A DNA stretch of 44,935 bases from a virus: positions 1 to 44,935 of IMG/VR virus record IMGVR_UViG_3300045922_000149. One strand, 5' to 3'. Below the pieces are notes generated by a model, which was not told the DNA's origin, made no database searches, and worked only from the letters and a program-made list of their open reading frames with translations. This document shows, in pieces, positions 8,892 to 44,935 of the stretch (within the stretch, counting starts at the first letter, position 1; each line of letters starts with the position of its first letter). A program made the position numbers and the translations under genes.

Positions 8892-8972
8892 GAGTTCAGA
8901 AAAGACCCGAAACATACAGCATGATGCCTCTGCATCTCTCCGCACGCCTAGCCTGGGCCATCAACAACTAAC

Positions 8973-11821: not shown

Positions 11822-11830
11822 GTAGTGCCC

Positions 11831-11953: not shown

Positions 11954-11975
11954 CCCACCACAAACCTAAACACCC

Positions 11976-12173: not shown

Positions 12174-12214
12174 GTCTGCGTGATGTGAGTAAACCAACCA
12201 ACCCGGAGGAAACG

Positions 12215-13412: not shown

Positions 13413-13437
13413 ATGCACCACCAACGGAGGGATTAGG

Positions 13438-15042: not shown

Positions 15043-15866
15043 TGGAAAAGAAACTTGCCATCCGTTCGATGTATCGTGCCCCCAAAGGTAAAGTCCTGTG
15101 TGCATTCGATCTTTCCGCCGCCGAGGCCTGGATCGTAGCCTATCTGTCTAACGATCCTAACATGAAGCGAGAGTTGGCTAATGGCGACATCCACTCATTC
15201 TCGGCCTGCGGAATCTTCGACATTCCCATCCCGCCCGGAGAAGGAAAGGCACGATACAAGGGAGTAGTACCCGATGACAAGCGTTACGTCGGGAAGAAGA
15301 TGAATCACGCAGGTAACTACCGCACGAGTCCATTCAAGATTGCGGAGTTCATCAACGCGGAAGGTATCATCACAGTCTCGCTCGCCGAGGCAAAGAGATT
15401 CCATGCGAAGTGGCTATCTTCTTTCAGCCTGCACTCTTGGTGGAATGAAGTTGACTACATCGCACAGACTACCAAGACGATCACGACATGTTACGGATTC
15501 CGAAGGAAGTTCTGGGGAATCTACAACGATGACTTGAAGAAGGAAATGACTGCCTTCGAGCCTCAGTCAACGGTGGCAAGCCACATGCATGGAGCAATCC
15601 ATCCAGAGCTTGGCATCGAAGGTGGAAACGCAGCCATTCTGAAATACATCGTAAAGCCTAGCAAAGGAGAAATCAGAATGTGCAACACAGCACACGATTC
15701 CGTCATGCTGGAAGTGCCTACGCCCCTCGTGAACGAAGTAGTGCCCCAAGTCATCTCGTACCTCAAGCGGCCCATCGTAATCAAAGGACAAGAGTTCACC
15801 ATTCCAGTAGATGCTGAAGTAGGCGAGCGTTGGAAGGAAATGGAAGATTGGCGCGGAGAACACTAA
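15042..15866 (+). CDS. Family A DNA polymerase, chain 2: palm and fingers, 274 aa
   Basis: It starts in the TAATG overlap. Motif A is AFDLSAAEAWIVAYLS at about 21-36, with the catalytic Asp at 23. The O-helix region RYVGKKMNHAGNY lies at 81-93, with Lys85 in the conserved place and His89 where E. coli Pol I has Phe762. Motif C is AHDSVMLEV at 217-225, with Asp219. Together with chain 1 all polymerase segments are present in order, with no residues missing at the break, so the enzyme is probably rebuilt from two polypeptides. Confidence 0.92.
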   Translation: MEKKLAIRSMYRAPKGKVLCAFDLSAAEAWIVAYLSNDPNMKRELANGDIHSFSACGIFDIPIPPGEGKARYKGVVPDDKRYVGKKMNHAGNYRTSPFKIAEFINAEGIITVSLAEAKRFHAKWLSSFSLHSWWNEVDYIAQTTKTITTCYGFRRKFWGIYNDDLKKEMTAFEPQSTVASHMHGAIHPELGIEGGNAAILKYIVKPSKGEIRMCNTAHDSVMLEVPTPLVNEVVPQVISYLKRPIVIKGQEFTIPVDAEVGERWKEMEDWRGEH

Positions 15867-15867
15867 G

Positions 15868-17073: not shown

Positions 17074-17120
17074 AAAACCCCCGGCGCCGAAAGGCTAACC
17101 GGGGGCTTTTATTTTGTTCA
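17074..17120. terminator. Bidirectional terminator between converging operons
   Basis: CCCCCGG at 17078-17084 pairs with CCGGGGG at 17099-17105. An inner GCC-GAAA-GGC stem with a GNRA tetraloop lies between them. On the plus strand the hairpin is followed by CTTTTATTTTG; on the minus strand by TTTTTCA. Both the plus operon (ending at 17073) and the minus operon (ending at 17143) can use it. Confidence 0.9.
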
Positions 17121-17163
17121 ATCCTCCCAATCCTCCCAATCCTCAATCCCGATCCTCAATCCC
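17121..17163. repeat. Short tandem repeat at the end of the minus operon
   Basis: AATCCTCCC occurs twice and is followed by two diverged copies of ATCCTCAATCCC. The last units lie inside the C-terminal codons of the 1394-aa gene. Probably a slippage product. Confidence 0.7.
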
Positions 17164-20100
17164 AAGATATTGCTTTGCCAACTTGGTCCTTTCACGTTGC
17201 AAGATGAGGATTTCATCACGCTTCTCATCTGGCGTCATGGCTTCATTGAATCGAGTGAAATTGATCTGTTCATTGAATCGGTCAATCAATTCCTTGTACA
17301 TTGCCACCTTCAGAGCTTGTTCAATCTTGTCCTTGTGGGCATTGTAGATCGCGTCCACTCTTTCCGGTGCGCCATCAAGCATGGCTCGATTCAGGCTATT
17401 GATTACTGGAGTGTACTTGTCCACGTCATTGTAGAACTTCTCCATGTATCTCCGTCCGCCCTCATCCTTGCTTCCGGTCGAGAGCCCAAGGAAGGGAATG
17501 TACACTGACTTGTTGGATGGAGAAGGATTCTTATTGGAACTCCCGGCGATAGCCTGGTCCGCGCGGAGGAAGTCATTGTACAGATTGCCCACGAGCATAG
17601 TCTTGACGATGCGATCCAAGACTCCGGCGTCCTTGCCAGTCTTCTGCGCGAGGAACTGTGCAAGGTTGCTGGTCTGGCCTGAACGTGCATCTTCCGGCAG
17701 GAGATTCTTTCTACCCTGCGGAATGACGCTGTAGTTCTTGAATCCGAATCCATCGAGATTGTACTCTTGTCCAGTGACTAGAGTGATCCCGCCCTGGACC
17801 ATCAGTGGAACGAAGTTCGGAATAGTTGATCTTTGAGTAGTCTCCCAAATCCTGCTCAGTGCATCAGTGTCATTGGAGTCCTGAAGCTCATCGAGTAGTG
17901 TTTCCACCGCATTGACTAGGCCGAGACTGACTGGACCCTGAGGCTTCGGAACGGCGAAGTATGAATTGGGATCAAGTGGATTACCAATGTAGAAGTACCC
18001 CGCGCCCTTCCTGTCATTCCGCAACGCTCTGATCTTCTCATCGTCCTTGTTGAGATACCAGTTGATAACCGTGGCAGGAACAAGGAGCTTAGTTGCATGG
18101 ATGAGAGTCTTGGCAAGGAGTTGTGGATTCTCTCTAGTTGACTTGCCAAAGACTAGCTTGTACTGTGCCTTCGCCGCCTGGATTGGATAATTCATGAAGC
18201 CGATGAATCGCGATGCCGCTGCGAGTCTGGCCCCACTCAAAGCTGGATCACCAAGTGACGCATTGAATGCCTGGACCAACTCAGACATTGGAACGTCTTT
18301 GTAGTTCCTGACTACGAGGCCCATGCGTCCTGCATTCGACAAGTTCCCTGCGAACTCCTTGGCGACCTTTCCCCAGTTAGAAGGATGGAGTCTCCAGTTC
18401 TTTCCGTAACGCTGGAGAACCGTGGAAAGTTCCTCGACGTTACGAGCGATTTCTTCCACGTTCGGATCAGCATATCGGAATGAGTTTCCTCCACCATTGT
18501 AGATCAGATCATTGACAATCTGTGAATTGTCTTTGTAAAGCTCGAAGATTCCAGCGACAGGATCAGTGAGAATGTTGAACTTCCATCCCTTGTTCTTTGC
18601 ATAGATGCTCAGATCAACAGCATCTTGCAATACACCAGCCCGAACAAGGTCACGATACACCGAGAAAATGCCCGTCGCGGCCTTCTCGGTGCTGGCCGCA
18701 GCGTTCGCAGGAAGATTCTTGTAGAAAAACTTCTCCAGCTTGGGAGCATTCTCCGGGACAAAGCCTTGCTTCGTGCCCTTCCACTGCATGAGTCCGAGGG
18801 ACTCGGCCAGTTCATTATTGACTTGGAGAGAATAATTGATCCCATTCAACTTGAAGTTGTATTTGCCACTAAGCCCCTGGTCAATGCTCATCGCCTCGGC
18901 CATAGCCTTTTGTAGTACTTCCGGGACATCAGGATTCTGTTGCTTGACTAGCTCAAGAGCTTCCTTGATCTGCGGAGTGAATTGCCACTCCTTGACATCA
19001 ACGATTCCCGCGAGGTCTGGATTACGAATCCGTGCCTTAGCCAGCTCCGCAAGAATCCTGTTTCGCTCACCATTGAAGATGATAGCTCTTTGCATGTCAT
19101 ACAGACTGGCCCACAAGTCTGCGACTAGCTTCTGGCTCTCTGGATTAGTCCTGGTCTTGAGGAATCCAGAAGTATTGGAGTACACTGAACGGAACAGTGG
19201 TGCGTATGCAGGATTATCCAAAGAGTCAAACACATCCTTGCTGATCAAACCATAGTCGTAAAGTGCCTGCTTGAGGCCCTTGACGAATGGAATGTAAACT
19301 TCATCGTATGCTTGGACAAACTTCGGATAGTCCTGAGCATACTGATTGACTAGCTTGGTTGCTTCCTCTACAGTCCACGGAGTCTTGATATACTCAAGTC
19401 CGGCCTCCCTCTGGACTTGTCCCAAGGTCTGCTTTGCATGGACGAACATTGCAAACCTGTTCATGTCATCGGCATTTCCACCGACGGCCTGAATGACCTT
19501 TCCGAGTCCTGGTCCGACGACTCTGGCATTTCCATCTAGGTCAGGCGCAGTGAGATCATTGAGAATACTGTGCCGAGCCTTCAGCGTCCAGCGCAGGAAG
19601 TTCTGTGAGAGTTCTCCGGCCTTCTGAGAAACCTTGCGAATCGGAAGCAAGAAGTCCGTCGTGGCAAAGTCTGCGCGTTCCAGTGGAGTCTCGAGGAGCA
19701 TGGCCTCCTTGAAACGAGCCTCTTGCGCATTCTTGTTTCCGAAGTCAATCTTCTCGAAGAATGGCTTCTCTGCTTCACTAAGATTCGGCGGAGGATCAAC
19801 TGTGCCTTGGACCTTCGGCTTGAGGATTGGCGTAGTCGGATCACCGGACACTTCCGGCGGAACGTATGGATATGGCGATTGCTTTCCGCTGCCTGGACGC
19901 CACGGAGACTCGAACGGAATCTCAAGCTGCTTGCTAACACCTTGAAGTGGAAGTTCGATTTGGTACTCTGCACTCTGCTTGATGACATTGTTCAGATTAG
20001 TGATCTGTTCAATCAGATTGTCTTCTTCCTTAGCATACTTAGCCAGAAGATTCACATCTGCACTTCTGATGTACTTCTTCCTCATGTTCTCAGTGACATT

Positions 20101-21327
20101 GCCGATCTTCTCTATGATCTTACTATGCTTGGCAACGATCTTATCCAGAGGAAGTTCTTCTCCCTTGGACAGCCTGCCCATGAAGCGAATCTTGTCAATC
20201 AGCTCGCCTTCTTCCTTGACATACTTGTTCAGTAGATTGACTTCTGAAGCCTTCACGGAGCCCTTCTGGATGTTATCTGCAATATCATTGATCCTCTTGA
20301 TTACCAAGTCATGCCGAGAGACCATTTGATTCATCTGCTCGGGAGGGATTCTGTGCATATCAATCTTGTCGAGCAGATCGGCTTCTTCTCGGATGTAGGT
20401 GTTCAGAAGATTGAGATCAGCATCCCGCACCGACCCTCTGCGGATATTGTCCATGATGCTGCCCATTCGCTCCACTACCTTAGCATGCCGCTTGGTCAGA
20501 CGTTGCAATTCCACAAGCGGAGGCTGGCTAGGTGCAGTAGGCTCAGGCTGAGCCTGATTGAAGATGTCAATCTGCTTCGTATCGACGACTGGCTGTTCAC
20601 CGAAGAGATCGAGTTGCTTGACGGAAAGACCAGGATTGTCCTTCGCACGAATATCAAGCTCAACCGATGCCTGCTTCGCCGCCTCCGCTGGATTTGGACT
20701 CTCAATGACTGCCTGTGCTAGGCTTCTGCCAGTGTTCCTAACGTTGAACGCTCCATCCATCACTGATCCAACGAGACTCCAAGCACCGATGCGAATGAAG
20801 TCTTCCTTGGTCTTGGTAGTTTCTGGACGCGCCAAGCGTTCAGACACTGCGCTGGCGAGAACATTCCCTGGAGTCCCAGCGATTGCCCCCTTGATGAATG
20901 CCCCGGCCTTTGTGGTAGCTGGACCAAGTGCTTCCAGAATTGGAGCCTTGGCAACGGAACCAAGACCCATCGAAAGAGGAACATTGATCGGAGCTTCACC
21001 AATCATTGTACCGAGCATGCGTCCGGCCTTCCCTGCGAATCCCTCCGCCGGCATGTCTGAACGATATGTGCCGGTGCCAGTGGCCATTTCGATGGCGGCT
21101 TGCATTTGGAGAGGACCAGAACCACCAGCAAGTTTCATAACTCTGCCAGTGTTTGAGATGCCCTCCTTGAAGCCTTCCTTGAGATTAGGTAGGAACTCCC
21201 CCGGAGCAGAGAGTTCCTTCCGACGCTTGTTGTAATAGAACTTGATGAACTCATCTGACTCTCCGGCCTTCATCAAGTCGATCACTTCTTTACGAAGGAT
21301 GTCTTCAATGTCCTGAGTATCTTCCAT
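17143..21327 (-). CDS. Giant internal virion / polyvalent-like protein, 1394 aa
   Basis: Last and largest gene of the late operon. It has an acidic N-terminus, then a Gly/Ala-rich hydrophobic region (about 60-200) with several possible membrane-active helices. Three tandem helical repeats of about 44 residues, roughly 60 residues apart, follow at about 279-322, 337-380 and 399-442, each ending in N-L-L-x-x-Y-x-x-E-E-x-x-L-I/L-x-K/Q-I. A large C-terminal region of mixed helices has blocks recalling the large polyvalent proteins of podoviruses (for example around RARVVGPGLGKV-like and AMFVHAKQTLG). It carries QLDLF at 238-242 and QIDIF at 252-256, which match beta-clamp-binding pentapeptides. 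Ejection with the DNA is the likely role. It starts in a TAATG overlap with the upstream gene. Confidence 0.8.
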   Translation of the reverse strand: MEDTQDIEDILRKEVIDLMKAGESDEFIKFYYNKRRKELSAPGEFLPNLKEGFKEGISNTGRVMKLAGGSGPLQMQAAIEMATGTGTYRSDMPAEGFAGKAGRMLGTMIGEAPINVPLSMGLGSVAKAPILEALGPATTKAGAFIKGAIAGTPGNVLASAVSERLARPETTKTKEDFIRIGAWSLVGSVMDGAFNVRNTGRSLAQAVIESPNPAEAAKQASVELDIRAKDNPGLSVKQLDLFGEQPVVDTKQIDIFNQAQPEPTAPSQPPLVELQRLTKRHAKVVERMGSIMDNIRRGSVRDADLNLLNTYIREEADLLDKIDMHRIPPEQMNQMVSRHDLVIKRINDIADNIQKGSVKASEVNLLNKYVKEEGELIDKIRFMGRLSKGEELPLDKIVAKHSKIIEKIGNVTENMRKKYIRSADVNLLAKYAKEEDNLIEQITNLNNVIKQSAEYQIELPLQGVSKQLEIPFESPWRPGSGKQSPYPYVPPEVSGDPTTPILKPKVQGTVDPPPNLSEAEKPFFEKIDFGNKNAQEARFKEAMLLETPLERADFATTDFLLPIRKVSQKAGELSQNFLRWTLKARHSILNDLTAPDLDGNARVVGPGLGKVIQAVGGNADDMNRFAMFVHAKQTLGQVQREAGLEYIKTPWTVEEATKLVNQYAQDYPKFVQAYDEVYIPFVKGLKQALYDYGLISKDVFDSLDNPAYAPLFRSVYSNTSGFLKTRTNPESQKLVADLWASLYDMQRAIIFNGERNRILAELAKARIRNPDLAGIVDVKEWQFTPQIKEALELVKQQNPDVPEVLQKAMAEAMSIDQGLSGKYNFKLNGINYSLQVNNELAESLGLMQWKGTKQGFVPENAPKLEKFFYKNLPANAAASTEKAATGIFSVYRDLVRAGVLQDAVDLSIYAKNKGWKFNILTDPVAGIFELYKDNSQIVNDLIYNGGGNSFRYADPNVEEIARNVEELSTVLQRYGKNWRLHPSNWGKVAKEFAGNLSNAGRMGLVVRNYKDVPMSELVQAFNASLGDPALSGARLAAASRFIGFMNYPIQAAKAQYKLVFGKSTRENPQLLAKTLIHATKLLVPATVINWYLNKDDEKIRALRNDRKGAGYFYIGNPLDPNSYFAVPKPQGPVSLGLVNAVETLLDELQDSNDTDALSRIWETTQRSTIPNFVPLMVQGGITLVTGQEYNLDGFGFKNYSVIPQGRKNLLPEDARSGQTSNLAQFLAQKTGKDAGVLDRIVKTMLVGNLYNDFLRADQAIAGSSNKNPSPSNKSVYIPFLGLSTGSKDEGGRRYMEKFYNDVDKYTPVINSLNRAMLDGAPERVDAIYNAHKDKIEQALKVAMYKELIDRFNEQINFTRFNEAMTPDEKRDEILILQRERTKLAKQYLGIEDRD

Positions 21328-22373
21328 TATCTCTTGCCTCCTCGGTACATGTTGTACTTCTTCTCCATGTCATCCTTCGAGGAAGTCTTGTTGCCGAACA
21401 TTCTATTGTACCTCTCTTCGAACGTTTCCATCTGATCCAAGTCTGTCGGCGCTTCGGGAAGTGGAGCATCCTCGATGCCGAGTGGCCTAGCCATAGTGTT
21501 GTAGATGTTTTCGTATGCCTTCTTCGCATTCTTGACATTCTGCACAGCTTGGAGGTACTCAGGACTGCTGCGGATTCGATCAGCGAAACTTGGAATCGTC
21601 ATCATCTTCGGGTCCATCAGCTTACTCAGCGCAGCGAGGGCACTCATGTAAGCCTGACGACTATTGCTAAGCAATGCACGAACGTCACTACCTGTCTGAT
21701 TGGAGACACGCATGTTAGCGATGTCCCTGTTGGCCTTGAGTTCCTCATTGACCCTGTAGATGGTAATCATATTGTTGAGAGTTTCCATCGCACCAGGAAT
21801 GGTATTGAGGACTTGCATTTCAGTAGCCGTCGCGGGACTGATGTTCAAAGAAATAATGTCCTTGAGGATTCGTGTCAGATCAACCTTTCCGCCGGTCTGC
21901 TGTAGGGCATCTTCAATACGAGCGCGGCCCTCCTTCATCACTTGAGTAGTGATTCTGTCTCGCTCGATGTCGAGTTCTTCCTTTTCTTTCTGTCTAGTCC
22001 TAGAATCTTTCAGCCAGTCGATGTCTTCCTGAACTGGCAATCCTGCTTCCGTCGCCATACCGCGCTCACGGACTTCTGGCGAAGCATTCTTCCATGCCTC
22101 GGCGATGCGCTCCCTTTTCTCACGCTCAGGCCCGGCGGGAAGGTCCTTGAAGGGATTCTTCTTTTTGAATCCGATGGCCTCCGCGATTGCTTGTCGTGAA
22201 GGATCATCCATGTTCTGAATGAATGGAAGCAGAGTAGGGTCTCTCTGGACTAACTGCTGAAGACGCCTCTCTGCGAAGTTGTCAGGCATTGCCCGTTCCA
22301 TCACCGCCTGCATGAATGGAACAGTCGAATCCTTGATCTCATCCCAGAATCCGGGAAGCATCGGGATAGTCAT
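21327..22373 (-). CDS. Putative internal virion protein, 348 aa
   Basis: Strongly helical and charged, with MPDNFAERRLQQLVQRDP near the N-terminus and long coiled-coil-like stretches in the middle (RTRQKEKEELDIERDRITTQ, about 125-145). No known family is recognised. Its position between the Q/N-rich 507-aa protein and the 1394-aa protein, with a TAATG overlap to the latter, suggests a second ejected or internal core protein. Confidence 0.72.
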   Translation of the reverse strand: MTIPMLPGFWDEIKDSTVPFMQAVMERAMPDNFAERRLQQLVQRDPTLLPFIQNMDDPSRQAIAEAIGFKKKNPFKDLPAGPEREKRERIAEAWKNASPEVRERGMATEAGLPVQEDIDWLKDSRTRQKEKEELDIERDRITTQVMKEGRARIEDALQQTGGKVDLTRILKDIISLNISPATATEMQVLNTIPGAMETLNNMITIYRVNEELKANRDIANMRVSNQTGSDVRALLSNSRQAYMSALAALSKLMDPKMMTIPSFADRIRSSPEYLQAVQNVKNAKKAYENIYNTMARPLGIEDAPLPEAPTDLDQMETFEERYNRMFGNKTSSKDDMEKKYNMYRGGKR

Positions 22374-35559: not shown

Positions 35560-37137
35560 CTATGCTATGCGTGTGTAGCCTGTAAGTGGATCACGGAGTG
35601 AGAGGAACTTCTGTTCAGCATTCTTCTGTTCCTCGATGCGCGAACGGTTCACGCTTGAACGCCAGAACTCTGGTCCATAGGCCAAGGCATCGAGCATGTG
35701 ATAGGCATTTCCAAGACCGAACTGCATGTACTCTTCCACGAGGGCAGTTTGTTCCTGGTTGAACCAGATTTGCCCGGCGGAGAAGTACGGAGCCAAGCCG
35801 AGGACGCGGGCATCCTTCGCCTTCTGCCTCGTCTTGGCAGGGATCACATTGAAGAACATGCCCCTGTGACGCATTTCCGATTGGAGCCAGTGTCTATACA
35901 GCCTGGAGAAGAGCACTTCCTCGATCACCACGGCACGGAGTTGCCACTTTTCCACCGCCGCGAAGATTTTCGGAATCATCTTGTCCGGTGGAATGGGGCC
36001 TCTTTGTGCCTCTAGAACGAAGATGTTCGGCTTGTTCGAAATGTAATCAGTTCCCGTGATGATCCACCCAGCATCACCTTCAACCGCAGGATCGATGAAG
36101 AGCACCTTGTCGAGTCCTTCAACATCCCGTGTGAGTCTCTCAGTCCCAGTAAATGCATGAATCTGATTGCGTCGCGCGGCCCATTGGTAGTATCGTAGCC
36201 ATGCGGGATCGAGTTCGTGCTGTTCTCTGAAGTCTGGAGCATTCAGATAGTTCGCAGTCCAGAGCTTCCTGTTCTTCTTGAGATGTGCCAGAGACTCCAG
36301 CGTGAACATCTCAGGGAAGATGGGCTCATAGCTCTGCGTCTCAGGATTGAACTCGATTACAGAACGGACGTAGCGTGGAAGACTGTCTCCGTACTTCTCG
36401 AATGCATGGCTGTAGACATCCTTGTGATTGTACCGTGTCCCGATGAGATCGAATCCGTCCGAGAGTGGAGTGACGAGATATGGTTCGATTTCGTCAAACC
36501 ACTGGATCGTCCTCTCGTGCATCGCCTGGGAGTCACGGGCATCAGTCCCATAGATGTCATCCAGCTTGAGACGATTGTAGTGACGACCTTGGCTCTTGGT
36601 TCCTACACCCATTGTGTCGAATGTAGGTTCCGACCATGAGGCAGTGCGACGAAGCTCCAGTTCTGTGATGTTGATCCTTTGTTCCCTGTTCGTAGGGATG
36701 ATCTCAGGAAAGAGAAAGCGGAGAAGTTCGTTGGAAGTGACCCAGTTCGTGATTTCCTGAAGGAACCTGGATGCCATTCGATCCGATTCGTGGATGAGAC
36801 AAATACGAACGTTCGGTCCTAGATTCCTCGGATAGGGCGCTGTTCCAAGATCATCCGGCAGGGCGATCTGGAGTGCATCTACCTTCGTGCAGTAGGTAGT
36901 CTTGCGATGTGAACGTGGAAGTAGGATGCACCTATTCTTGGACGCTTCGTGGAGCTTCATCCACGAGAATAGATGTTTGTACAGAGGATAGTCCGACCGA
37001 CTGTTCGGAAGGAGGACTCCCTGCGAGAGAAAGAGAAGATCGTTCTTCGCTTTGATCCGCAGGTGTGTGTACTCCTCGTCCGTGAAGTTCTTTCTGATCT
37101 CGTCCGGTGGAAGGTGGTGCACCCAGGTACTCGACAT
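35560..37137 (-). CDS. Terminase large subunit, 525 aa
   Basis: ATPase: PRSHRKTT at 74-81 (adenine/Walker A-type loop) and KLDDIYG at 191-197 (Walker B). Nuclease: FIDPAVEGDAG with catalytic Asp at 349, a further acidic pair in VVIEEVLFS, and DALAYGPEFW near the C-terminus as in other RNase H-like terminase nucleases. It drives DNA packaging into proheads and cuts concatemers. The start overlaps the small terminase-like gene by 206 bases in another frame. Confidence 0.92.
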   Translation of the reverse strand: MSSTWVHHLPPDEIRKNFTDEEYTHLRIKAKNDLLFLSQGVLLPNSRSDYPLYKHLFSWMKLHEASKNRCILLPRSHRKTTYCTKVDALQIALPDDLGTAPYPRNLGPNVRICLIHESDRMASRFLQEITNWVTSNELLRFLFPEIIPTNREQRINITELELRRTASWSEPTFDTMGVGTKSQGRHYNRLKLDDIYGTDARDSQAMHERTIQWFDEIEPYLVTPLSDGFDLIGTRYNHKDVYSHAFEKYGDSLPRYVRSVIEFNPETQSYEPIFPEMFTLESLAHLKKNRKLWTANYLNAPDFREQHELDPAWLRYYQWAARRNQIHAFTGTERLTRDVEGLDKVLFIDPAVEGDAGWIITGTDYISNKPNIFVLEAQRGPIPPDKMIPKIFAAVEKWQLRAVVIEEVLFSRLYRHWLQSEMRHRGMFFNVIPAKTRQKAKDARVLGLAPYFSAGQIWFNQEQTALVEEYMQFGLGNAYHMLDALAYGPEFWRSSVNRSRIEEQKNAEQKFLSLRDPLTGYTRIA

Positions 37138-37633
37138 TGCGTGGAACCTCGATGTGTTGAAGTGTCGGTGCGGATCGCAGTCGCTCCAACACGTCGCTCG
37201 ACAGGATGTTCTGGGTGATGTTTACGTTAGTGTTCTTAGTCTGCGGAGTGTCCATACGAGAGACTGTTTCCAGAGTCTTCCGCGAGGCATCCCAGAATGA
37301 GAATGGCTTGGCCGCTTTGAGTTCAGTGTTATCCAGCATCTCGGACATCGCATCCAGTGCTCTGGACTTGATCGAGTTGATTCTGTCCTGCATCGTGTCG
37401 GAGGCATGCTTGATTGCCCGACGCTCGATTTCCAGAACGATGTTCTTAGCCTGTTCCGTGTTCATGATGTTCCGCAAGTGGTGATCCGACTTGCCGAAGC
37501 GAACACGGAGTTCTGGAATGGACACTCCACTGTAATGGAGAACGACTGCCTCGGTCATCCAAGGCAGCCATTCCCTCACAGTGAAAGAAGCGAATCCAGA
37601 ATTGTTAGGGACTACTCCAATGATTCCTGCCAT
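36932..37633 (-). CDS. Putative terminase small subunit, 233 aa
   Basis: The ATG at 37633 is chosen because a separate small basic gene (37639-37776) occupies the region upstream; the longer frame starting at 37870 is rejected. Residues about 25-60 contain a helix-turn-helix-like SGVSIPELRVRFGKSDHHLR, followed by a helical body with ERRAIKHASDTMQDRINSIK, as in phage small terminases that recognise the packaging site. The C-terminal 69 residues overlap the large-subunit gene and look less constrained. Confidence 0.75.
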   Translation of the reverse strand: MAGIIGVVPNNSGFASFTVREWLPWMTEAVVLHYSGVSIPELRVRFGKSDHHLRNIMNTEQAKNIVLEIERRAIKHASDTMQDRINSIKSRALDAMSEMLDNTELKAAKPFSFWDASRKTLETVSRMDTPQTKNTNVNITQNILSSDVLERLRSAPTLQHIEVPRNVEYLGAPPSTGRDQKELHGRGVHTPADQSEERSSLSLAGSPPSEQSVGLSSVQTSILVDEAPRSVQE

Positions 37634-37638
37634 TGGGT

Positions 37639-37776
37639 CTAAGGCTGAGGTTTGCGAAGGCGAGTGAACATCTTGGAGACTGTACGTTTCATAGGTGTCA
37701 TCTTGGGCTTGCCGATTGTTTTCTTCGGCTTGAGGACTTTGTATGCGTTTCCAGGCTTCTTGGACTTGCCAGCCAT
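37639..37776 (-). CDS. Small basic protein, 45 aa
   Basis: ATG at 37776 after GGGAGTCACT. Lys/Arg-rich with repeated K-P motifs (MAGKSKKPGNAYKVLKPKKT, followed by IGKPKMTPMKRT). It ends five bases before the small terminase ATG. Probably a nucleic-acid-binding or virion-assembly peptide. No family recognised. Confidence 0.65.
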   Translation of the reverse strand: MAGKSKKPGNAYKVLKPKKTIGKPKMTPMKRTVSKMFTRLRKPQP

Positions 37777-37809
37777 AGTGACTCCCAGAGAGGATTGAAA
37801 TGACAAGGA

Positions 37810-38502
37810 CTAGCGAAAGAGCTGAAACAGCAATGAGAAGTCCTTCCTCTTTTTGATCTCGACGAAGCATAGCATCATACCGAGTCCTACTCCAGGACTG
37901 GATGCTCCCGTGTCACTGACAGTGAGATTACCTGTTAGTCCAGAAGGAGCATCCGTTCGGTACATCAGTGTCATGCCAGCGTCGTTTCCAGCAGTGCTGT
38001 TTGTAAGCTCGGCCTGTGTGAAGTTAGCCAGACTGCCCGAGCCAGAAAAGTCATTCGACTTTCCGGCACTTACCACCACGAGCGAGCCGGGAATGGGAAC
38101 TGACAGTTCACTGATTGGTCCGATGTCGTGGGCACTGGTATTTGTGCTGGCAGAACCACTAGCGGCAAAGAGCATTCTGTTCTTGCCAGTAGCGTAGAAT
38201 CCATGAACTCTACTTACTTGAGTATCATCCGTTGCGCCAGTTCCGGTCCATGTCACTACTGGAGTGTCTTCATTCGGACTGGCATATTTCCATGCCAAGA
38301 GATGATACGATGTGCCGTTCGTGATCAGGTAAGAGTTCCAACTTCCGCCGATGCTGGGACTCCGCGCATTTGTTCCACCGAAGTTCTGTGCTTGGAGGAC
38401 TAGCACGTCCCCAGGAGATGTTCCGAATGGCAATCCTGGAGATAGACTAGTGGTGTTCACACCTACAGACTCTGCTCCACTTCCACGATAAATGATTGCC
38501 AT
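37810..38502 (-). CDS. Tail structural protein, paralogue A, 230 aa
   Basis: Aligns throughout with the first two-thirds of the 316-aa protein at 39723: both start MAI-Y/F-R-x-x-GA, share TSL-PGLP-GT--GD-L-LQAQ, then VSRVHGFY, then SAGKSNDF-G and GNDAGMTLMYR-DAP-G. It lacks the C-terminal domain of that paralogue and ends KKRKDFSLLFQLFR. All-beta, virion-associated by position. Confidence 0.75.
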   Translation of the reverse strand: MAIIYRGSGAESVGVNTTSLSPGLPFGTSPGDVLVLQAQNFGGTNARSPSIGGSWNSYLITNGTSYHLLAWKYASPNEDTPVVTWTGTGATDDTQVSRVHGFYATGKNRMLFAASGSASTNTSAHDIGPISELSVPIPGSLVVVSAGKSNDFSGSGSLANFTQAELTNSTAGNDAGMTLMYRTDAPSGLTGNLTVSDTGASSPGVGLGMMLCFVEIKKRKDFSLLFQLFR

Positions 38503-38970: not shown

Positions 38971-39726
38971 TTACACTCCGAACTTATTATTAGTGCTTCC
39001 GTCGCCAGTGATGGTTACATCATTGATGCTTTGGACATTCACATCGAGTTCATTGGTCTTAGTAAAGACAAGTTGATCGGTCTTTGCCTTGATGGCTGCG
39101 ACTTCCGTGTCCACATACCCTGCAACCTCTGTGAGCAGTGTTGATGTCGCTAGGCCATCCTGAATCTTATTCACAGCGTCAGTGGCAATCTTTGCTCCGG
39201 CAATGGCGTCGGTAGCGATGGTTCCACTAGTGATTGCATTGTTTGCAATGTCACCAGCAGCGATAGTGGCGGGAGCCTTTCCGCTCGCCACGTTCAGTTC
39301 ACCAGTGCCCGTTCCGACTTTCAGCGTGACGACCGGATGACCAGCAGAGGCAGGAGTCGCTACGTTGGAACCATTCCACTGTGTTACGTTGGCTGCAATC
39401 GTCGTGTCGAATACAGTGCTGTGGAAGATTTGACAAGAGAATGTCGTCAAAGCGCAGCCTGTAGGCTTGATGTATCCACGGATCACAGTGCCAGCCGTTT
39501 GGTTGGTTTCCGACTGGGTAAGCTCCAGGTAATACTGACCATTAGCACCGTTGAGCTTCGTGATGTCATTCGTGCTATCCGCCGGTGTTCCACCGTCGAT
39601 GGAAAGAGAAGCCTTTACTCCAGTGACCGTGATGTCCTTCGGTGTAGTAAAGTCAGTACCATCGACAAGTGTAAAGAATACACGACGGAGCGCCGCTGTA
39701 CTTGTGTTACTTGGAATGATTCTCAT
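38971..39726 (-). CDS. Beta-rich tail or virion protein, 251 aa
   Basis: Thr/Ala/Ile-rich with a middle segment IANNAITSGTIATDAIAGAK (about 165-184) typical of trimeric phage fibre stalk repeats, and an earlier VTQWNGSNVATPASAGHP block often seen in phage and phage-like surface proteins. Overlaps the 316-aa gene by ATGA. No enzyme motif. Confidence 0.7.
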   Translation of the reverse strand: MRIIPSNTSTAALRRVFFTLVDGTDFTTPKDITVTGVKASLSIDGGTPADSTNDITKLNGANGQYYLELTQSETNQTAGTVIRGYIKPTGCALTTFSCQIFHSTVFDTTIAANVTQWNGSNVATPASAGHPVVTLKVGTGTGELNVASGKAPATIAAGDIANNAITSGTIATDAIAGAKIATDAVNKIQDGLATSTLLTEVAGYVDTEVAAIKAKTDQLVFTKTNELDVNVQSINDVTITGDGSTNNKFGV

Positions 39727-40673
39727 AGGTCGTCTCCGCTAGTCAAACCACACAAATCTCGATAGTACCAGGATGGAATGTTTCCACCAGGAACTTCTGT
39801 TCCATCAATCTCCGCGTTGATCTCCAGTACTTGCACGTCACCGACGGCACCCCGCTTCGTCACGCGCACCCGCAGCGCCGACGCATCGGTGATGTTTGCA
39901 CGCTCTCCGCTCGTCAGCGTGACCACAATATTTCCTGCATTCCAGCCCACACTCTGCGTTGTGCGCGTCGCAATTACTGTCGTGTTCTGAAGCACTTCAA
40001 CATCGAGCGTGTCCAGATCGACTTCCTGAAAACACAGCATTTTTCCGAGGCCGACGCCATTGCTGTTTGTGTTACCATCGTCTTGCACGGTGAGATTTCC
40101 CGTGGCACCAGCCGGGGCGTCGAGCCTATACATCAGTGTCATGCCCGCGTCATTGCCGACCGTGCTTTCCGTCAGTGCCGCCTGCGTGAAGTCCGTGAGC
40201 GCGCCCTGACCATTGAAATCGTTGGACTTGCCCGCCGAAATGACGACCAGCCCGCCACCTGTCGGCACGGTGATGCCGGAAATGGGGCCGATATTGTCGG
40301 CGCTCGCGTTCGTGGAATTGTCACCCACGACGGCCAGAACAAGACGCTTGCCACTGCTGTTCGTGTAAAAGCCGTGGACGCGACTGACCATCGTGTCATC
40401 CGTCGCGCCCGTGCCCGTCCATGTGATCGTCGGTGTGGATTCACCCCTACGCGCGAACTTCCACGCGAGCAAGTGTCGCGACGTGCCGTTGTTCCACTGA
40501 TAGGATGTCCAATCCGATTCGACACTCGGCACACGGGAATTGGTGCCGCCGAATGATTGTGCCTGAAGAATGAGCAAATCACCCGACGTGGTGCCGCTCG
40601 GCAATCCTGGTGTCAGGCTCGTGGCATTGTTTCCGTTGGATGCAGCGCCCGCCGCACGAAATACGATCGCCAT
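39723..40673 (-). CDS. Tail structural protein, paralogue B, 316 aa
   Basis: The first two-thirds align with the 230-aa protein at 37810; the extra C-terminal third (from about residue 222, with DVEVLQNTTVIATRTTQSVG) is a separate domain. Codons are more GC-rich than in paralogue A, so one of the pair probably arrived by transfer. It overlaps the next gene in the operon. Confidence 0.78.
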   Translation of the reverse strand: MAIVFRAAGAASNGNNATSLTPGLPSGTTSGDLLILQAQSFGGTNSRVPSVESDWTSYQWNNGTSRHLLAWKFARRGESTPTITWTGTGATDDTMVSRVHGFYTNSSGKRLVLAVVGDNSTNASADNIGPISGITVPTGGGLVVISAGKSNDFNGQGALTDFTQAALTESTVGNDAGMTLMYRLDAPAGATGNLTVQDDGNTNSNGVGLGKMLCFQEVDLDTLDVEVLQNTTVIATRTTQSVGWNAGNIVVTLTSGERANITDASALRVRVTKRGAVGDVQVLEINAEIDGTEVPGGNIPSWYYRDLCGLTSGDDL

Positions 40674-40675
40674 CG

Positions 40676-41464
40676 CTAACTCCCGATGCGCGTGCGAACG
40701 TGAAGAATCATGGAATCCACCGAGGACAGCGCCGGACTTGGCGCGGCCAGTCCGAGTGTCATCACGGCATCATCCGCCGATGCGCTGGCAAAAGTCGTGT
40801 TACTCTGATCGCTCGTGTCACTGTGCAGCGTCGTGTCGCTCGCCGTCCATCCCGATGCGCTCACCGTGCTGTTCGGACGGATCGTCTGCCCAACGGAAAT
40901 GTCAGACACCTCGACGCGACCAAAACGACCAGAGGGTAGTGCTGAGTTTGTGTTCCGAAGTCGGAATCCTGTCGCCGTTTGGTGGTCGGTGACCGTTTCA
41001 TCAATGCAATAGGTGTCGTTGATATAGACCTTGATCGACGATCCGAGTGCTTCAAGACGAATGGTGATATCCTCCCCAACGATACCAGTAGCATAATCAC
41101 TGATGAGTGTAGCGGTTCCGCTGACGACAGAAGTGAGATCGACAACGCCATCAGAAGACAGACTGAGCCGAAGAAAGTTGTTCGCATCACTCCGACGAAA
41201 ATGCACGCTAGTATAGTCACCGGAGCTTCCTTCCGTCCGCATCACGACATCCATCGTGAAATCCGAAACGGCGCTCGTCGGCGTAAAGACCGCCTGTCTT
41301 ACGGCACCAGATGACACGCTCCGCGCATAGCCGTTGCCGTCAAGCTGCAACGCACCGCCGCTCGCAATTTCATTCGTGAACGCGCCGACCTCGGGTGTAT
41401 ATGATAGCCCGCGCAACTCGGTGCCCGATGTTCCGTCGAACTCCGCACGAAAGAGCGTCGCCAT
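40676..41464 (-). CDS. Lectin/LamG-like virion protein, 262 aa
   Basis: A jelly-roll pattern of concanavalin-A-like lectins: FRAEFDGTSGTELRG at the start, VSDFTMDVVMRTEG (about 66-79), VHFRRSDANNFLRLSLSSDG (about 87-106), ITIRLEALGSSIKVYIND and ATGFRLRNTNS. The C-terminal module VGQTIRPNSTVSASGWTASD (about 191-210) and following residues resemble the separate 43-aa protein just upstream. Likely carbohydrate binding on a virion appendage. Confidence 0.75.
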   Translation of the reverse strand: MATLFRAEFDGTSGTELRGLSYTPEVGAFTNEIASGGALQLDGNGYARSVSSGAVRQAVFTPTSAVSDFTMDVVMRTEGSSGDYTSVHFRRSDANNFLRLSLSSDGVVDLTSVVSGTATLISDYATGIVGEDITIRLEALGSSIKVYINDTYCIDETVTDHQTATGFRLRNTNSALPSGRFGRVEVSDISVGQTIRPNSTVSASGWTASDTTLHSDTSDQSNTTFASASADDAVMTLGLAAPSPALSSVDSMILHVRTRIGS

Positions 41465-41596
41465 TCAGTCCTCCGCCGCTGATGCGCTTGCCAATGTCAT
41501 ATCACTCTGATCGCTCATATCGCCATGTAGTGTGGTGTCGCTGGCGGTCCATCCCGATGAGCTAACCGTACTGTTCGGGTGAATTGTCTGTGCCAT
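41465..41596 (-). CDS. Small protein homologous to the lectin-gene C-terminal module, 43 aa
   Basis: ATG at 41596 after TAAGGGAATGAT; the stop TGA is followed directly by the ATG of the lectin-like gene (TGAATG). MAQTIHPNSTVSSSGWTASD and what follows match residues about 191-232 of the 262-aa protein. It is either a truncated duplicate or a free-standing version of a shared module. Confidence 0.72.
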   Translation of the reverse strand: MAQTIHPNSTVSSSGWTASDTTLHGDMSDQSDMTLASASAAED

Positions 41597-41630: not shown

Positions 41631-42167
41631 TTATGCCGCATAGAGCGCATCCCGCATCGGTGCGATCACGCGGCGCAATCGAGCAATTGCGCGGCTGGTC
41701 ATCATTCTTGCGACACCATCAGACACTCCGAGCGCCGACGCGATCTTGGAATATGGCTCGTCGTGCCAATAGCGCCGCACGAGCACATCTCGCCAGTGGG
41801 CAGGCAACGTCTGAAGTGCCGCACGGATCGTTGCAATAACCACAGGTCGATCAATCATTGCATCAACCTGTGCCCAGTCGTCACGGGTGAGCACACCATC
41901 ATGCACTACTGGCGACAACGGCACTGTCCTCTGTACGGTGTGTGACTTCCACCGATCCCGCAGGATGTTGCGTGCCGTGATCACCAACAGGACATCAGGC
42001 GACGCCCACGCATGGCCGCGCCCGTAGAGCCGCGCAATTGCCTCCGCCACGGCATCGTCGGCATCGACGCTCGCCGGCATCTTGCCACGCACCCGAAGCA
42101 AAATCTGCTCCAGATCGTGTGTGGTAAGCTGCTCGATAAAGCGGTCGAACGACGACACTTGGATCAT
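41631..42167 (-). CDS. ECF-type sigma factor (sigma-70 family), 178 aa
   Basis: Region 2-like at about 34-76: DADDAVAEAIARLYGRGHAW then LLVITARNILRDRWKSH, as in the -10-recognition helix of ECF sigma factors. Region 4 at about 114-170: RAALQTLPAHWRDVLVRRYW then EPYSKIASALGVSDGVARMM, a helix-turn-helix that reads the -35 box. No region 1.1 or region 3 insert, so it is ECF-sized. Phages rarely carry ECF factors. It starts in an ATGA overlap with a virion gene, so it is produced with late proteins. Confidence 0.88.
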   Translation of the reverse strand: MIQVSSFDRFIEQLTTHDLEQILLRVRGKMPASVDADDAVAEAIARLYGRGHAWASPDVLLVITARNILRDRWKSHTVQRTVPLSPVVHDGVLTRDDWAQVDAMIDRPVVIATIRAALQTLPAHWRDVLVRRYWHDEPYSKIASALGVSDGVARMMTSRAIARLRRVIAPMRDALYAA

Positions 42168-42586
42168 GCAAGTGAGAACTGGATCAATCCATTAGTAGGA
42201 CTCACCTGCACTCTGAACGTGTCACCGTTCGGAATCGTGCTACTGACACCTCTGTCCCACCAACAGACGAGAGCATTCGTAGTCGAGTTGACAAGGACGG
42301 GGTAACGAAACGCAGCGATGTCTCCACCAGAGGCAGTGAAGTCAACATCATTGGCATATACGGTCGCGATGCTTCCTGAAGTAGAGACATTGGTTACAGT
42401 TACAGTGGCACCACCGGCAGTATAGCCATTCCCTGCCGCAATCTCGGAAGGAAGATCAGCGATCACCTCGTTCGATGCGCTTGGAACTGTGTTCAACAGG
42501 CGAATCTTGTATGTATGCGTATCGAAGTCATGCAGGCCTTTTGCGACCTGCTCTCGAAACACAGTGAATACGTTCGGGGAAGCCAT
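42164..42586 (-). CDS. Virion structural protein, 140 aa
   Basis: N-terminal helix FREQVAKGLHDFDTHTYKIR followed by an all-beta Thr/Val/Ser-rich region (GGATVTVTNVSTSGSIATVY, then FRVQVSPTNGLIQFSLA). Similar small beta proteins are common among phage tail components. It is translationally coupled to the sigma factor. Confidence 0.7.
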   Translation of the reverse strand: MASPNVFTVFREQVAKGLHDFDTHTYKIRLLNTVPSASNEVIADLPSEIAAGNGYTAGGATVTVTNVSTSGSIATVYANDVDFTASGGDIAAFRYPVLVNSTTNALVCWWDRGVSSTIPNGDTFRVQVSPTNGLIQFSLA

Positions 42587-42760
42587 CTATCAGGTTCCGT
42601 TGAGGAGTGTGATGTGTGCTACGGCACTGAGCATACTACTTATCAATGCCATGCGCCCAAGCATTGTCTTTGTGATGAATGCTCTTTCTTGCCAGAGGAG
42701 GCAGCCTTCTTTGCGTACGCGGTGATAGATCATTCTACGTGCTGCACGTCGAGCACCTAG
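42530..42760 (+). CDS. Alternative antisense frame with a zinc-finger-like pattern, 76 aa
   Basis: On the plus strand of the same gap, EECDVCYGTEHTTYQCHAPK is followed by HCLCDECSFL and a later CC. The Cys/His spacing recalls RING or other treble-clef zinc sites. The start (ATG 42530) lies antisense inside the 140-aa gene and has no good ribosome site, so it may be chance. Confidence 0.2.
   Translation: MQAFCDLLSKHSEYVRGSHLSGSVEECDVCYGTEHTTYQCHAPKHCLCDECSFLPEEAAFFAYAVIDHSTCCTSST
42590..42733 (-). CDS. Possible small late protein, 47 aa
   Basis: In the otherwise unexplained 42587-42816 gap, a minus-strand frame MIYHRVRKEGCLLWQERAFI... continues with a hydrophobic MALISSMLSAVAHITLLNGT and ends TGATAGATG, three bases before the next gene. 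The operon direction supports it, but the ribosome site is weak, and a plus-strand frame here also looks coding. Confidence 0.3.
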   Translation of the reverse strand: MIYHRVRKEGCLLWQERAFITKTMLGRMALISSMLSAVAHITLLNGT

Positions 42761-42816
42761 TGGTACTTGAACAAATGGACTGAGAACAGTTCATCGTACC
42801 AAATGACAACGTTGCA

Positions 42817-43437
42817 TCAACTGCTCCGTTCGGCCTGGACTGCCTTCCTCGCAGACTCGCACGCCTCGACGATTTGCTCCTCTTCCTCCTGACTCACTCT
42901 TACATCAATGAGTGTCACCATTTCTCCAGTTGACTTGCGTCGTGCAAATGCACACAGTTGAACACTGCGGCCAGTCAACATTGTCAGTGGTCCAGCCGCG
43001 CCATTCACTGTACGTACGAGGATTGGCAGATCAAACTCGGCCAGGAAAGCCAGCGTGTCAATCTTAAGGGAGTCCACGGACGGCGGAGGGGCATCAGGAT
43101 TATGAATCCAAATGTTCGCCGTGCGTGGAGAAGAAGCTTGTCCACGACGAAGAGCTACAACAGAGACAGTGACGAGTGTTGAATCACCGATAGGAGGATG
43201 TGGAATGACTACAGTATCCGCCTTTCCAGTTACAGTGCGCGTATTACCTGGAGTCCAGGTCACACGGAAAGAGTCAGGACAACCTCGCCAGTCACAAATA
43301 GAGGACCAACGTGCAACTACTCGGACTCCATCCTGTCGGTATGAGACACTGAGCGCAGGGGAAGCAAAGGCAACTGCTGCGACAACGATGATGCCAGAAC
43401 CAAAAAGTGCGGCCAGGACCTTCCAGAAAGTAGACAT
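42817..43437 (-). CDS. Membrane-anchored or secreted FN3-like protein, 206 aa
   Basis: An N-terminal hydrophobic helix (LAALFGSGIIVVAAVAFASP, about 8-27) acts as an anchor or signal peptide. Residues about 32-110 form an Ig/FN3-like beta-sandwich (DSFRVTWTPGNTRTVTGKAD, then STLVTVSVVALRRGQASS). The C-terminus is helical and acidic (SQEEEEQIVEACESARKAVQ). Could be a virion or cell-surface protein, for example superinfection-related; this is open. Confidence 0.7.
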   Translation of the reverse strand: MSTFWKVLAALFGSGIIVVAAVAFASPALSVSYRQDGVRVVARWSSICDWRGCPDSFRVTWTPGNTRTVTGKADTVVIPHPPIGDSTLVTVSVVALRRGQASSPRTANIWIHNPDAPPPSVDSLKIDTLAFLAEFDLPILVRTVNGAAGPLTMLTGRSVQLCAFARRKSTGEMVTLIDVRVSQEEEEQIVEACESARKAVQAERSS

Positions 43438-43451: not shown

Positions 43452-43790
43452 CTATGCAAGCCAGAGTTTGCTAACCTTGAATGTCCTGTTCGCTGCGGCA
43501 TTGGCAGAGGACTTGATTCTCCAGTAAGGAAAACCGAGCAGTTCGGTATATTGGCGTCCCGATCCTGCAGGCGGAGGGGCGAAGTTCGCTGTTCCATCAT
43601 GCAGCGTGGCGAACGTAGAACCATCAAATGACACTTCCAGCGTCCACGTTGCCGAATCGAGAGTCCCTGGGGAAATGATGGCGATTGCCGCAGCGTCGTG
43701 ACACTCAGCACTAGTATCAACGACACGCGAGGCGTTCGTACCCGATGAAACTACGAGGTCCGCGAGTGGGGAAATGAATGAAGTGGACAT
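43452..43790 (-). CDS. First late-operon structural protein, 112 aa
   Basis: A beta-sandwich-like pattern (DSATWTLEVSFDGSTFATLH, about 44-63, then YTELLGFPYWRIKSSANAAA). Similar domains occur in phage tail and appendage proteins. It is the first gene of the minus-strand late operon, facing the non-coding control region. Confidence 0.68.
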   Translation of the reverse strand: MSTSFISPLADLVVSSGTNASRVVDTSAECHDAAAIAIISPGTLDSATWTLEVSFDGSTFATLHDGTANFAPPPAGSGRQYTELLGFPYWRIKSSANAAANRTFKVSKLWLA

Positions 43791-43849
43791 GGGTGTAGGG
43801 AGTGGGAAGCCATGCGTGGAGGATGAGGACTCGGCGGGAAGCGGTCTGT

Positions 43850-43901
43850 GCCAAGAGGCCTATGCCAAGAAGCCTACGCCAAGAAGCCTACGCCAAGTGC
43901 C
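43850..43901. repeat. Fourteen-base tandem repeat
   Basis: GCCAAGAAGCCTAC and close variants repeat 3.7 times from 43850 in the leader upstream of the first late gene. In the minus direction it reads CTTGGCGTAGGCTT... Perhaps a slippage repeat; it may influence the late mRNA leader. Confidence 0.85.
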
Positions 43902-43980
43902 AAAAGACCGAGAAAAACTACAAACCCTGATCCCTGCGATGGTGAATGGTAAACGTCTCTGCTAGGTTTGTCGAGGATCG

Positions 43981-44032
43981 GGGGCATTATGGATTGGATT
44001 CAAAAAGGGGCATTGTGGATTGTATTCAAAAA
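43981..44032. repeat. Tandem 26-base repeat in the control region
   Basis: GGGGCATTATGGATTGGATT with CAAAAA (43981-44006) recurs at 44007-44032 with two mismatches. It begins an AT-richer stretch. Candidate binding sites for a replication or transcription factor. Confidence 0.9.
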
Positions 44033-44036
44033 TTTG

Positions 44037-44097
44037 AAAATATTGCAAAAATTATAAAGGTCATGTTTCAAAAATATTGCAAAAATTATAAAGGTCA
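44037..44097. repeat. AT-rich direct repeat with TATAAT on the minus strand
   Basis: AAAATATTGCAAAAATTATA with AAGGTCA occurs at 44037-44063 and exactly again at 44071-44097. Each copy contains ATTATA, that is TATAAT when read on the minus strand in the direction of the late genes, although no good -35 was found. The pair suits an unwinding element or late promoter region. Confidence 0.85.
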
Positions 44098-44172
44098 CTT
44101 AATCTTCGCGCGTCACGCGTTCTTTATCCTCCCCCCGGGGTCCAGGCATTCATTACCGTACGCTCTTCGCGT

Positions 44173-44298
44173 CGCATGTTTACATCGTCGCATGCCGACA
44201 TGTTCGCATGACTGTATGCCGATGTGATCGCATGATCGCATGCCAATGTAACCAAATAGTTATATGTTGATATGCTTGCATGTTCGTGTGATCGCATG
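44173..44298. repeat. GCATG-rich degenerate repeat array
   Basis: GCATG occurs seven times in 126 bases (44173, 44190, 44206, 44230, 44238, 44278, 44294), often as TCGCATG or GATCGCATG. The spacing is uneven. Such dense short repeats are typical of replication-initiator or regulator binding arrays. Confidence 0.75.
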
Positions 44299-44391
44299 GC
44301 CACGTGATCACATAGTTGCTTGACTGAGGGATGGAATCGGAATGGAAGTTTAGGGATCGGCACGTCGGGAAGCGGGGCGCGGAGACGTGAT

Positions 44392-44446
44392 GCATTCTTA
44401 TGGATGGACGGCGATGCGGGGCGCAGGACGCATTCTTATGGATGGA
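44392..44446. repeat. Repeated 17-mer with related flanks
   Basis: GCATTCTTATGGATGGA occurs at 44392-44408 and exactly at 44430-44446. The upstream flanks (GCGGGGCGCGGAGACGTGAT versus GCGGGGCGCAGGAC) are also related, making a unit of roughly 38 bases. It lies between the GCATG array and the early promoter. Confidence 0.85.
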
Positions 44447-44546
44447 AGCGGAGCGCGTCGCTGGTATGCTAGAGTGAGACTCGAGGGCGCAGGGCGCATG
44501 CAGTACTATAGAACGCGTCTCATTTAATAGCGCCGGGCGAACGGAA

Positions 44547-44577
44547 TTGATAATGATAAATCGTTACATGTTATAAG
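44547..44577 (+). promoter_or_regulatory. Possible weaker upstream promoter
   Basis: TTGATA at 44547-44552 and TATAAG beginning 19 bases later (44572-44577). Both boxes resemble sigma70 elements but the spacing is two bases too long. It would run in the same direction as the stronger promoter at 44592. Confidence 0.3.
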
Positions 44578-44591
44578 TAAAAAAATGGCCC

Positions 44592-44620
44592 TTGACTAAA
44601 TAAATCGAGCATGTTATTAT
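44592..44620 (+). promoter_or_regulatory. Strong sigma70 promoter for the early operon
   Basis: TTGACT at 44592-44597, exactly 17 bases, TATTAT at 44615-44620. Both hexamers differ from consensus by one base. It points towards the repeat, and hence towards the first early gene when the ends are joined. The predicted start (about 44627) abuts a perfect DnaA box, so DnaA could repress early transcription. Confidence 0.8.
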
Positions 44621-44627
44621 GAAAGAG

Positions 44628-44636
44628 TTATCCACA
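44628..44636 (+). promoter_or_regulatory. Perfect DnaA box
   Basis: TTATCCACA matches the bacterial DnaA box consensus exactly. It lies immediately downstream of the early promoter, and a near-consensus box in inverted orientation occurs at 44770-44778. Two boxes, AT-rich repeats and the short-repeat array make this the best origin candidate. Confidence 0.65.
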
Positions 44637-44757
44637 ATCGGCCCGGTGCATCGGATTCGGCCGGTGAACGTATTACTGAGGTAGGGGGGTATGTCCAGGT
44701 TAGTCCGCCCCTCCGTCCGTCCACTCCTAGAAAATTCTGTACCGGCCGGCTAGGACC

Positions 44758-44935
44758 GACACGGAAGATTGTGGACAACTCCACTATTGACTTCGGCGCG
44801 GATTTGTTGTAGGTTGTTCGCAGGTTCACAGGCTCACAGTCCATCATCCATCGGGAGAACCAAACATGTCCACCACCACCACCATGCCCCGCCTCACCCT
44901 CGCGATCGACGACACCGCCCTCAACCTCACCCGCG
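44758..44935. repeat. Right copy of the terminal direct repeat
   Basis: Equivalent to positions 1-181 with one ACC unit less. It includes a DnaA-like box at 44770-44778, a TTGACT/TAGGTT promoter candidate and the start of the first gene. Together with the left copy it shows that the two contig ends are joined in nature or in the replicating form. Confidence 0.95.
44866..44935 (+). CDS. Partial duplicate of the first early gene
   Basis: The start and first 23 codons of the gene at 109-453 recur here, with four Thr instead of five after MS. The gene is cut by the contig end; on the circular map it is the same gene. Confidence 0.9.
   Translation, partial: MSTTTTMPRLTLAIDDTALNLTR

Follow-up and report, generated by a model that had tools for sequence, protein, structure and literature searches.

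Introduction

ECF (group IV) sigma factors consist of the sigma2 and sigma4 domains only, in roughly 160-200 residues and without region 1 or 3. Their sigma2 domain binds core RNA polymerase, which is guided to promoters by contacts that the factor itself makes with the -10 and -35 elements; a cognate anti-sigma factor is usually, though not universally, encoded alongside. Some sigma homologue is present in about 13% of 4,350 phage genomes (PMC9429907), and two ECF-like proteins, gp36 of phage phiEco32 and gp47 of phage 7-11, have been shown experimentally to drive phage transcription (PMC8948821, PMC4281155, PMC7881722). gp47 directs late promoters of the form GTAAtg-16-aCTA, while gp36, which is without a recognisable region 4, employs a single-element promoter (PMC8948821). 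Virion proteomics of SU10 recovered one peptide of a phiEco32-type sigma factor (PMC4281155). Of the sporulation-like sigma factors of phages, one, SP10 g120, is not required for lytic growth, and some turn on host genes when expressed (PMC9429907). Detailed knowledge of ECF-like phage sigma factors comes for the most part from the phiEco32 group, in which they act as core late factors.

Here we analyze a gene for an ECF-type sigma factor that a preliminary description had noticed within the late operon of a viral genome, and which it had considered to be of a class rare in phages. That rarity has to be tempered: in addition to gp36 and gp47, whose functions are experimental, BFVD holds several predicted proteins from uncultured phages annotated as 'RpoE, sigma24 homolog'.

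Results

Genome organization and late operon

The window, by which we mean the whole stretch analyzed, is one complete IMG/VR record of 44,935 bases and is a tailed-phage genome. Its plus strand carries replication genes, namely those for an SNF2-type helicase, an exonuclease, a Sak4-like protein, a split DNA polymerase I and a primase. The minus strand carries a late operon whose terminase, portal and capsid-like genes all lie downstream of the sigma gene on the same strand (Table 1), so that the late-operon position had been correctly recognized. The early operon includes the SNF2-family helicase gene (4167-5855; PF00176, 3e-24) and a single tRNA-Gln (TTG) gene (11831-11903). The coding sequence of DNA polymerase I is divided between two ORFs (13363-15866), which meet at 15042 and match successive parts of phrog_17, positions 547-988 and then 996-1239. 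Between the divergent operons, the non-coding stretch 43791-44935 looks like a replication origin; it contains a 41-nt inverted repeat (44625-44665 / 44741-44781) bearing the DnaA-box-like sequences TTATCCACA and TTGTGGACAA, exact 27-nt direct repeats (44037, 44071), 26-nt repeats (43981, 44007) and GCATG-rich repeats (44201-44317).

Table 1. Features of the late operon around the sigma gene (L001 is the sister contig; L002 to L006 are TerL-related records)
Feature	Position	Strand	Remarks
112-aa protein, first gene of late operon	43452..43790	-	48-51% conserved in relatives L003, L004, L006
206-aa protein	42817..43437	-	N-terminal hydrophobic segment and FN3-like beta domain; AF2 beta strands 28-112
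140-aa protein, phrog_644	42164..42586	-	phrog_644, 1.5e-20
ECF-type sigma factor, 178 aa	41631..42167	-	Intact ORF; ATG at 42167, stop ends 41631
Segment absent from L001	41480..42161	-	Sigma gene and partial domain copy
43-aa ORF	41465..41596	-	Partial copy of C-terminal domain common to 262-aa gene and L001 271-aa gene
262-aa protein, putatively virion/fibre-like	40676..41464	-	Downstream neighbour
Probable small terminase	36932..37870	-	Suggested by position and sequence; overlaps terL; homologues in L002-L006
Terminase large subunit	35560..37137	-	phrog_38, 1.3e-48
Portal	34606-32750	-	Late operon
Capsid-like protein	30990-30076	-	Late operon

In the late operon three clear genes, those for the 112-, 206- and 140-aa proteins, precede the sigma gene, which is the fourth. 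The preliminary description had given its position without a strand; the ORF is indeed intact there, and lies on the minus strand. The reported overlap with the neighbouring gene was borne out: the start codon of sigma (ATG) and the stop codon of the 140-aa gene before it (TGA) overlap in ATGA. Homologues of this 140-aa phrog_644 protein are found in the virion gene cluster of phage Pam1, where gp9 comes after the needle-head gene, and after the tail genes in a second contig, L080, which is described below. The small-terminase candidate has 217 aa in relatives and an HTH-like N-terminal part, and gave no match in Pfam.

The 178-aa protein is a two-domain sigma homologue

We scanned the sigma protein with 24,736 Pfam models. 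Both region 4 models exceeded their cut-offs, Sigma70_r4 (PF04545) with an E-value of 6.1e-10 and 38.9 bits against a Pfam cut-off of 24.1, and Sigma70_r4_2 (PF08281) with 9e-9 and 35.3 bits. Sigma70_r2 (PF04542) reached 12.2 bits against a cut-off of 24 (E 0.17, or about 7e-6 for one model), and a six-frame search with the r2 model alone returned nothing at E<=0.001. The description of regions 2 and 4 as clear therefore stands for region 4 and was overstated for region 2. Two NCBIfam models span both regions: TIGR02983 (SigE family), the best match (3.7e-13, residues 32-167), and the sigma70-ECF model TIGR02937 (1.1e-10, residues 30-166). The TIGR02983 score of 49.7 bits is below the family cut-off of 141.55, and that of TIGR02937, 41.4 bits, is 1.5 bits short of a curated cut-off (42.9) that is a property of the model rather than a biological feature. 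Since the latter cut-off is missed, we call the protein 'ECF-type' and assign it to no ECF group. For comparison, the proven sigma factor gp47 of phage 7-11 scores 21.8 bits with r4_2, against a Pfam cut-off of 25.7.

Judged from its sequence, region 2 appears to be real but weak, and is corroborated by the match between the N-terminal half of the protein and the L080/L104 sigma factor (17.4 bits; the maximum in about 1000 shuffles was 9.5). The layout comprises sigma2 (approximately residues 6-77), a linker (approximately 78-106) and sigma4 (approximately 107-177). In the AF2 model, helices span residues 6-12, 16-27, 36-48 and 57-77 in the sigma2 half and 107-120, 123-134, 139-146 and 150-177 in the sigma4 half, and the predicted order of four helices, linker and four helices is that of ECF sigma factors. 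The mean pLDDT of the model is 61, with low confidence in the N-terminal half. Its best PDB matches are ECF sigma factors (sigma H, AlgU), with whole-chain TM values of about 0.3-0.4 and none at E <0.001; the sigma4 half gave good matches (TM of 0.87 at best, relative to the target). With 178 aa and helix blocks at residues 6-77 and 107-177, the protein has the two domains of an ECF sigma factor, and we regard its ECF-type identity, which the preliminary description had proposed and which the matches of the Pfam and NCBIfam searches to sigma-70 models bear out, as very probable.

The sigma gene lies in a segment absent from a sister phage

A sister contig, L001 (IMGVR_UViG_3300045911_000056), is 97.5% identical to the window over 17.8 kb; in the leader of the late operon and its first genes, identity is 88%. 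It has the same flanking genes and is without sigma at exactly this site, where the phrog_644 stop joins the GCGGCGGAGG ribosome-binding region and ATG of the next gene almost directly. The segment that is present in the window alone also includes a partial domain copy, the region of the 43-aa ORF showing 115 nt at 80% to L001 5980-6094. In addition, the 262-aa protein differs from its L001 counterpart in its N-terminal part, while the last 71 residues are 94% identical. Since the insert bears a partial copy of a virion domain and the N-terminal part of the neighbouring protein has been swapped, the pattern is that of a modular exchange site. The GC content of the sigma gene (0.596) is the highest among 32 genes compared (as compared to 0.518 +/- 0.019), and its codon usage is within the range of the phage.

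The absence of sigma from L001 holds at this site; the contig is incomplete, with no counterpart of window 7968-21421, and could thus carry a sigma gene elsewhere. The relatives favour gain of sigma here over its loss in L001. An L001 reading, MIYAAEE* (ATGATCTACGCGGC...), bears a faint resemblance to the two ends of the sigma gene (MI...YAA*); this very short match could be a deletion scar. An assembly chimera is unlikely, because the insert holds phage-derived sequence and is ATGA-coupled.

Two further observations concern virion-region genes. A 76-aa ORF of L001 (4700-4930, corresponding to window 42590-42814, minus strand) is coupled to the 206-aa gene, and in the window its N-terminal part has been lost through a frame change and a stop. 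Two virion-like genes of one operon (39723-40673 and 37810-38502) are paralogues, with 63-65% when the copies of the window are compared to those of L001, as would be expected where fibre-like genes duplicate and are swapped.

Distribution of the sigma gene

Whole records related to the window by TerL, L001-L007 and L093-L102, were searched with the sigma70-ECF model; L004, L006, L095, L096 and L098 are of 47-53 kb and the others are fragments. No sigma factor was found in these records, including the five of 47-53 kb. The only match to the model, 12.6 bits over 25 positions, was in L097, where it falls in a gene immediately upstream of the terminase; it resembles a terminase-type helix-turn-helix rather than a sigma factor. 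Sigma is therefore probably no core gene of this phage group, being absent at the L001 site and found in none of L002-L007 and L093-L102.

We also examined 80 contigs with phrog_644 homologues. One, L080 (IMGVR_UViG_3300042465_003302, 67% GC), from an unrelated phage, encodes an ECF-like sigma factor of 221 aa in its late/lysis region; the terminase and portal of the window have no match in it. Its sigma factor is 27% identical to that of the window and closer to TIGR02989, and like the window sigma gene the L080 one has an ATGA overlap, here with the next gene, which encodes a membrane/coiled-coil protein and precedes a holin-like one. The L080 sigma gene lies directly downstream of a homologue of the window 206-aa gene (33% over 83 residues; phmmer 1.3e-5 / 3.8e-6 with L080/L104), a match whose 25.8 bits were reached by 0/917 scored shuffles; the link of the 206-aa gene with sigma thus recurs in the window and L080. 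The window sigma scores higher against some actinomycete ECF factors than against the L080 one, and the best NCBIfam models of the two differ; therefore, common descent and two separate acquisitions beside this neighbour are equally likely, and with n=2 the recurrence allows no firm claim. A primary-like (group 1/2) sigma-70 of much greater size is encoded in another phrog_644-bearing contig, L103 (IMGVR_UViG_3300025646_000104, 3355-4044), where its gene overlaps a dCTP-deaminase-like one.

Pattern scans of IMG/VR revealed no close sigma relatives beyond L080, and INPHARED gave one weak match to the window sigma (E 1e-3) and none to that of L080. The best plasmid matches were weak and from Streptomyces, and genomes gave weak actinomycete matches only, in a sample that consists of actinomycetes alone. 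Identity to the cellular ECF factors compared is at most ~29%, so that no recent donor is visible. A phylogeny with host ECF factors had been proposed; a tree of 14 rows was built and gives sigma no supported position, so the host could not be read from it.

Promoter motifs and anti-sigma candidates

A bipartite GGAAC-type motif, which the preliminary description had put forward as a possible target, occurs in the window DNA at or below chance: the canonical form GGAAC-N15-18-CGTC was found 0 times (1.8 by chance) and a variant ECF motif twice (2.1 by chance). Sigma70-type promoters, 6 as compared to 3.7 by chance, are also near chance level, and no repeated promoter motif or sigma target was found in the window.

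None of the neighbours of sigma matches an anti-sigma factor, in agreement with the earlier statement that none is recognisable beside it. The Cys-rich antisense frame (42515-42760) that had been offered as a candidate is broken in L001 by an in-frame stop, while the L001 sense frame (the 76-aa ORF) is conserved C-terminally; the antisense frame is thus no gene. An anti-sigma role for the 206-aa neighbour is unsupported, since its hydrophobic segment is N-terminal, it is without a cytoplasmic domain and it matches no family or PDB entry.

Discussion

The reading that we favour, and which we hold to be about as probable as its opposite, is that an intact ECF-type (group IV) sigma gene was acquired as an accessory cassette ('moron') in an exchange site of the late operon and redirects host polymerase. 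We infer timing, core binding, promoter specificity and targets as follows. Since its gene sits inside the late operon, the protein would be made late, its translation coupled to that of the phrog_644 gene; through sigma2 it would bind the core RNA polymerase of the host and divert part of this enzyme to a set of promoters specific to sigma. These would lie mainly in host genes, or be a few late phage promoters on which it would act as a booster, rather than the main late promoter. A factor encoded within the late operon cannot be what first switches that operon on, and L001, without sigma at the site, keeps both the operon and its leader, which makes sigma most likely optional; for these two reasons we prefer an accessory role to a master switch of the gp47/gp36 type. 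Its absence at the site in L001, and from L002-L007 and L093-L102 as searched, suggests the same. Further points in favour are the truncated domain copy, the swapped N-terminal part of the neighbouring protein, the high GC content of sigma, the comparable gene arrangement in L080 and the precedent of SP10 g120 as a non-essential phage sigma factor. Against an accessory role speak the incompleteness of the L001 contig, the weak region 2, the lack of any promoter motif or target in our searches and, by analogy, the studied ECF-like phage sigma factors of phiEco32 and 7-11, which drive phage promoters.

This analogy is the basis of a somewhat unlikely alternative, in which sigma is the phage's own late-gene factor: traces made by read-through would recognise late promoters of the phage and boost the late operon in a positive feedback, in the manner of gp47 of 7-11. 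Independently acquired ECF-like sigma factors do act on late genes in phiEco32 and 7-11 (PMC8948821, PMC4281155), the 7-11 sigma gene also lies inside a gene cluster whose transcription it aids, and no RNA polymerase was found among the larger window proteins scanned. However, late operon (97.5%) and leader (88%) are common to the window and L001, which is without sigma at this site; this also renders doubtful the earlier suggestion that sigma is what redirects polymerase to late promoters; moreover, no sigma was found in the other relatives searched, no repeated promoter motif was detected, and gp47 and gp36 are encoded outside the structural operon (PMC8948821). The gene might instead be a passenger: an ECF gene captured from a bacterium, under no selection for function and in the course of being lost. 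Occurrence in one known genome only, the adjoining truncated domain copy, a region 2 under cut-off and a GC content above that of its neighbours all agree with this, but the intact, ATGA-coupled ORF, codon usage within the phage's range and at most ~29% identity to the cellular ECF factors compared make it improbable.

It is very unlikely that the protein is no sigma factor at all and that its region-4-like helix-turn-helix is that of an HTH regulator or a small terminase. Region 4 does dominate the score, and there are weak matches to the antiterminator-Q-like phrog_79 and the regulator phrog_36; yet TIGR02983 and TIGR02937 span both domains, the region 2 halves of two phage sigma factors match beyond all shuffles, and a separate TerS-like gene overlaps terL. 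A small terminase is rejected on position as well, sigma being ~4.5 kb upstream of terL, whereas the gene that overlaps terL is conserved in relatives. We give least credence, and hardly any, to the packaging of sigma in the virion for injection and action at the start of the next infection, which the preliminary description had also raised: its coupling to a virion-cluster gene and the one phiEco32-type peptide in SU10 virions (PMC4281155) would agree with it, but there is no known packaging signal and a single peptide may reflect lysate carry-over. A broader conjecture, to which we attach a low probability, is that unrelated phages repeatedly place ECF sigma factors beside the same membrane/FN3-like gene in late/lysis modules, the sigma activating a host envelope regulon late and the membrane protein serving as its sensor or partner. 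Were it true, such a regulon could alter receptors, block superinfection or time lysis.

An accessory late sigma factor differs in several respects from the systems described so far. gp47 of phage 7-11 (SaPh711_gp47, 185 aa) is, like the window sigma, a small sigma2 and sigma4 protein; it was acquired independently from the bacterial ECF stock, and its phage relies on the RNA polymerase of the host. The two show no pairwise similarity (BLASTP E 5.2), and gp47 lies among DNA-metabolism genes that are transcribed opposite to the structural genes. gp36 of phiEco32 (Kuravirus) is likewise ECF-like and reprograms host RNA polymerase, but the strong region 4 of the window sigma sets the two apart. 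The actinomycete SigE-family factors (TIGR02983) are the best NCBIfam match in both domains; identity to them is nonetheless at most ~29%, and the position in the tree is unsupported. The sporulation-like phage sigma factors SP10 g120 and that of Goe3 (Schwartz et al. 2022) are accessory and host-like, and are of the SigF/SigG type with region 3, whereas the window sigma is of the ECF type. Of interest here are the placement in a structural operon and the presence or absence between sister phages. The window phage and L001 would form a natural with/without pair for what an extra sigma factor gives a phage, and a strain-variable ECF sigma in a structural operon may represent a capture stage that precedes late sigma factors like gp47.
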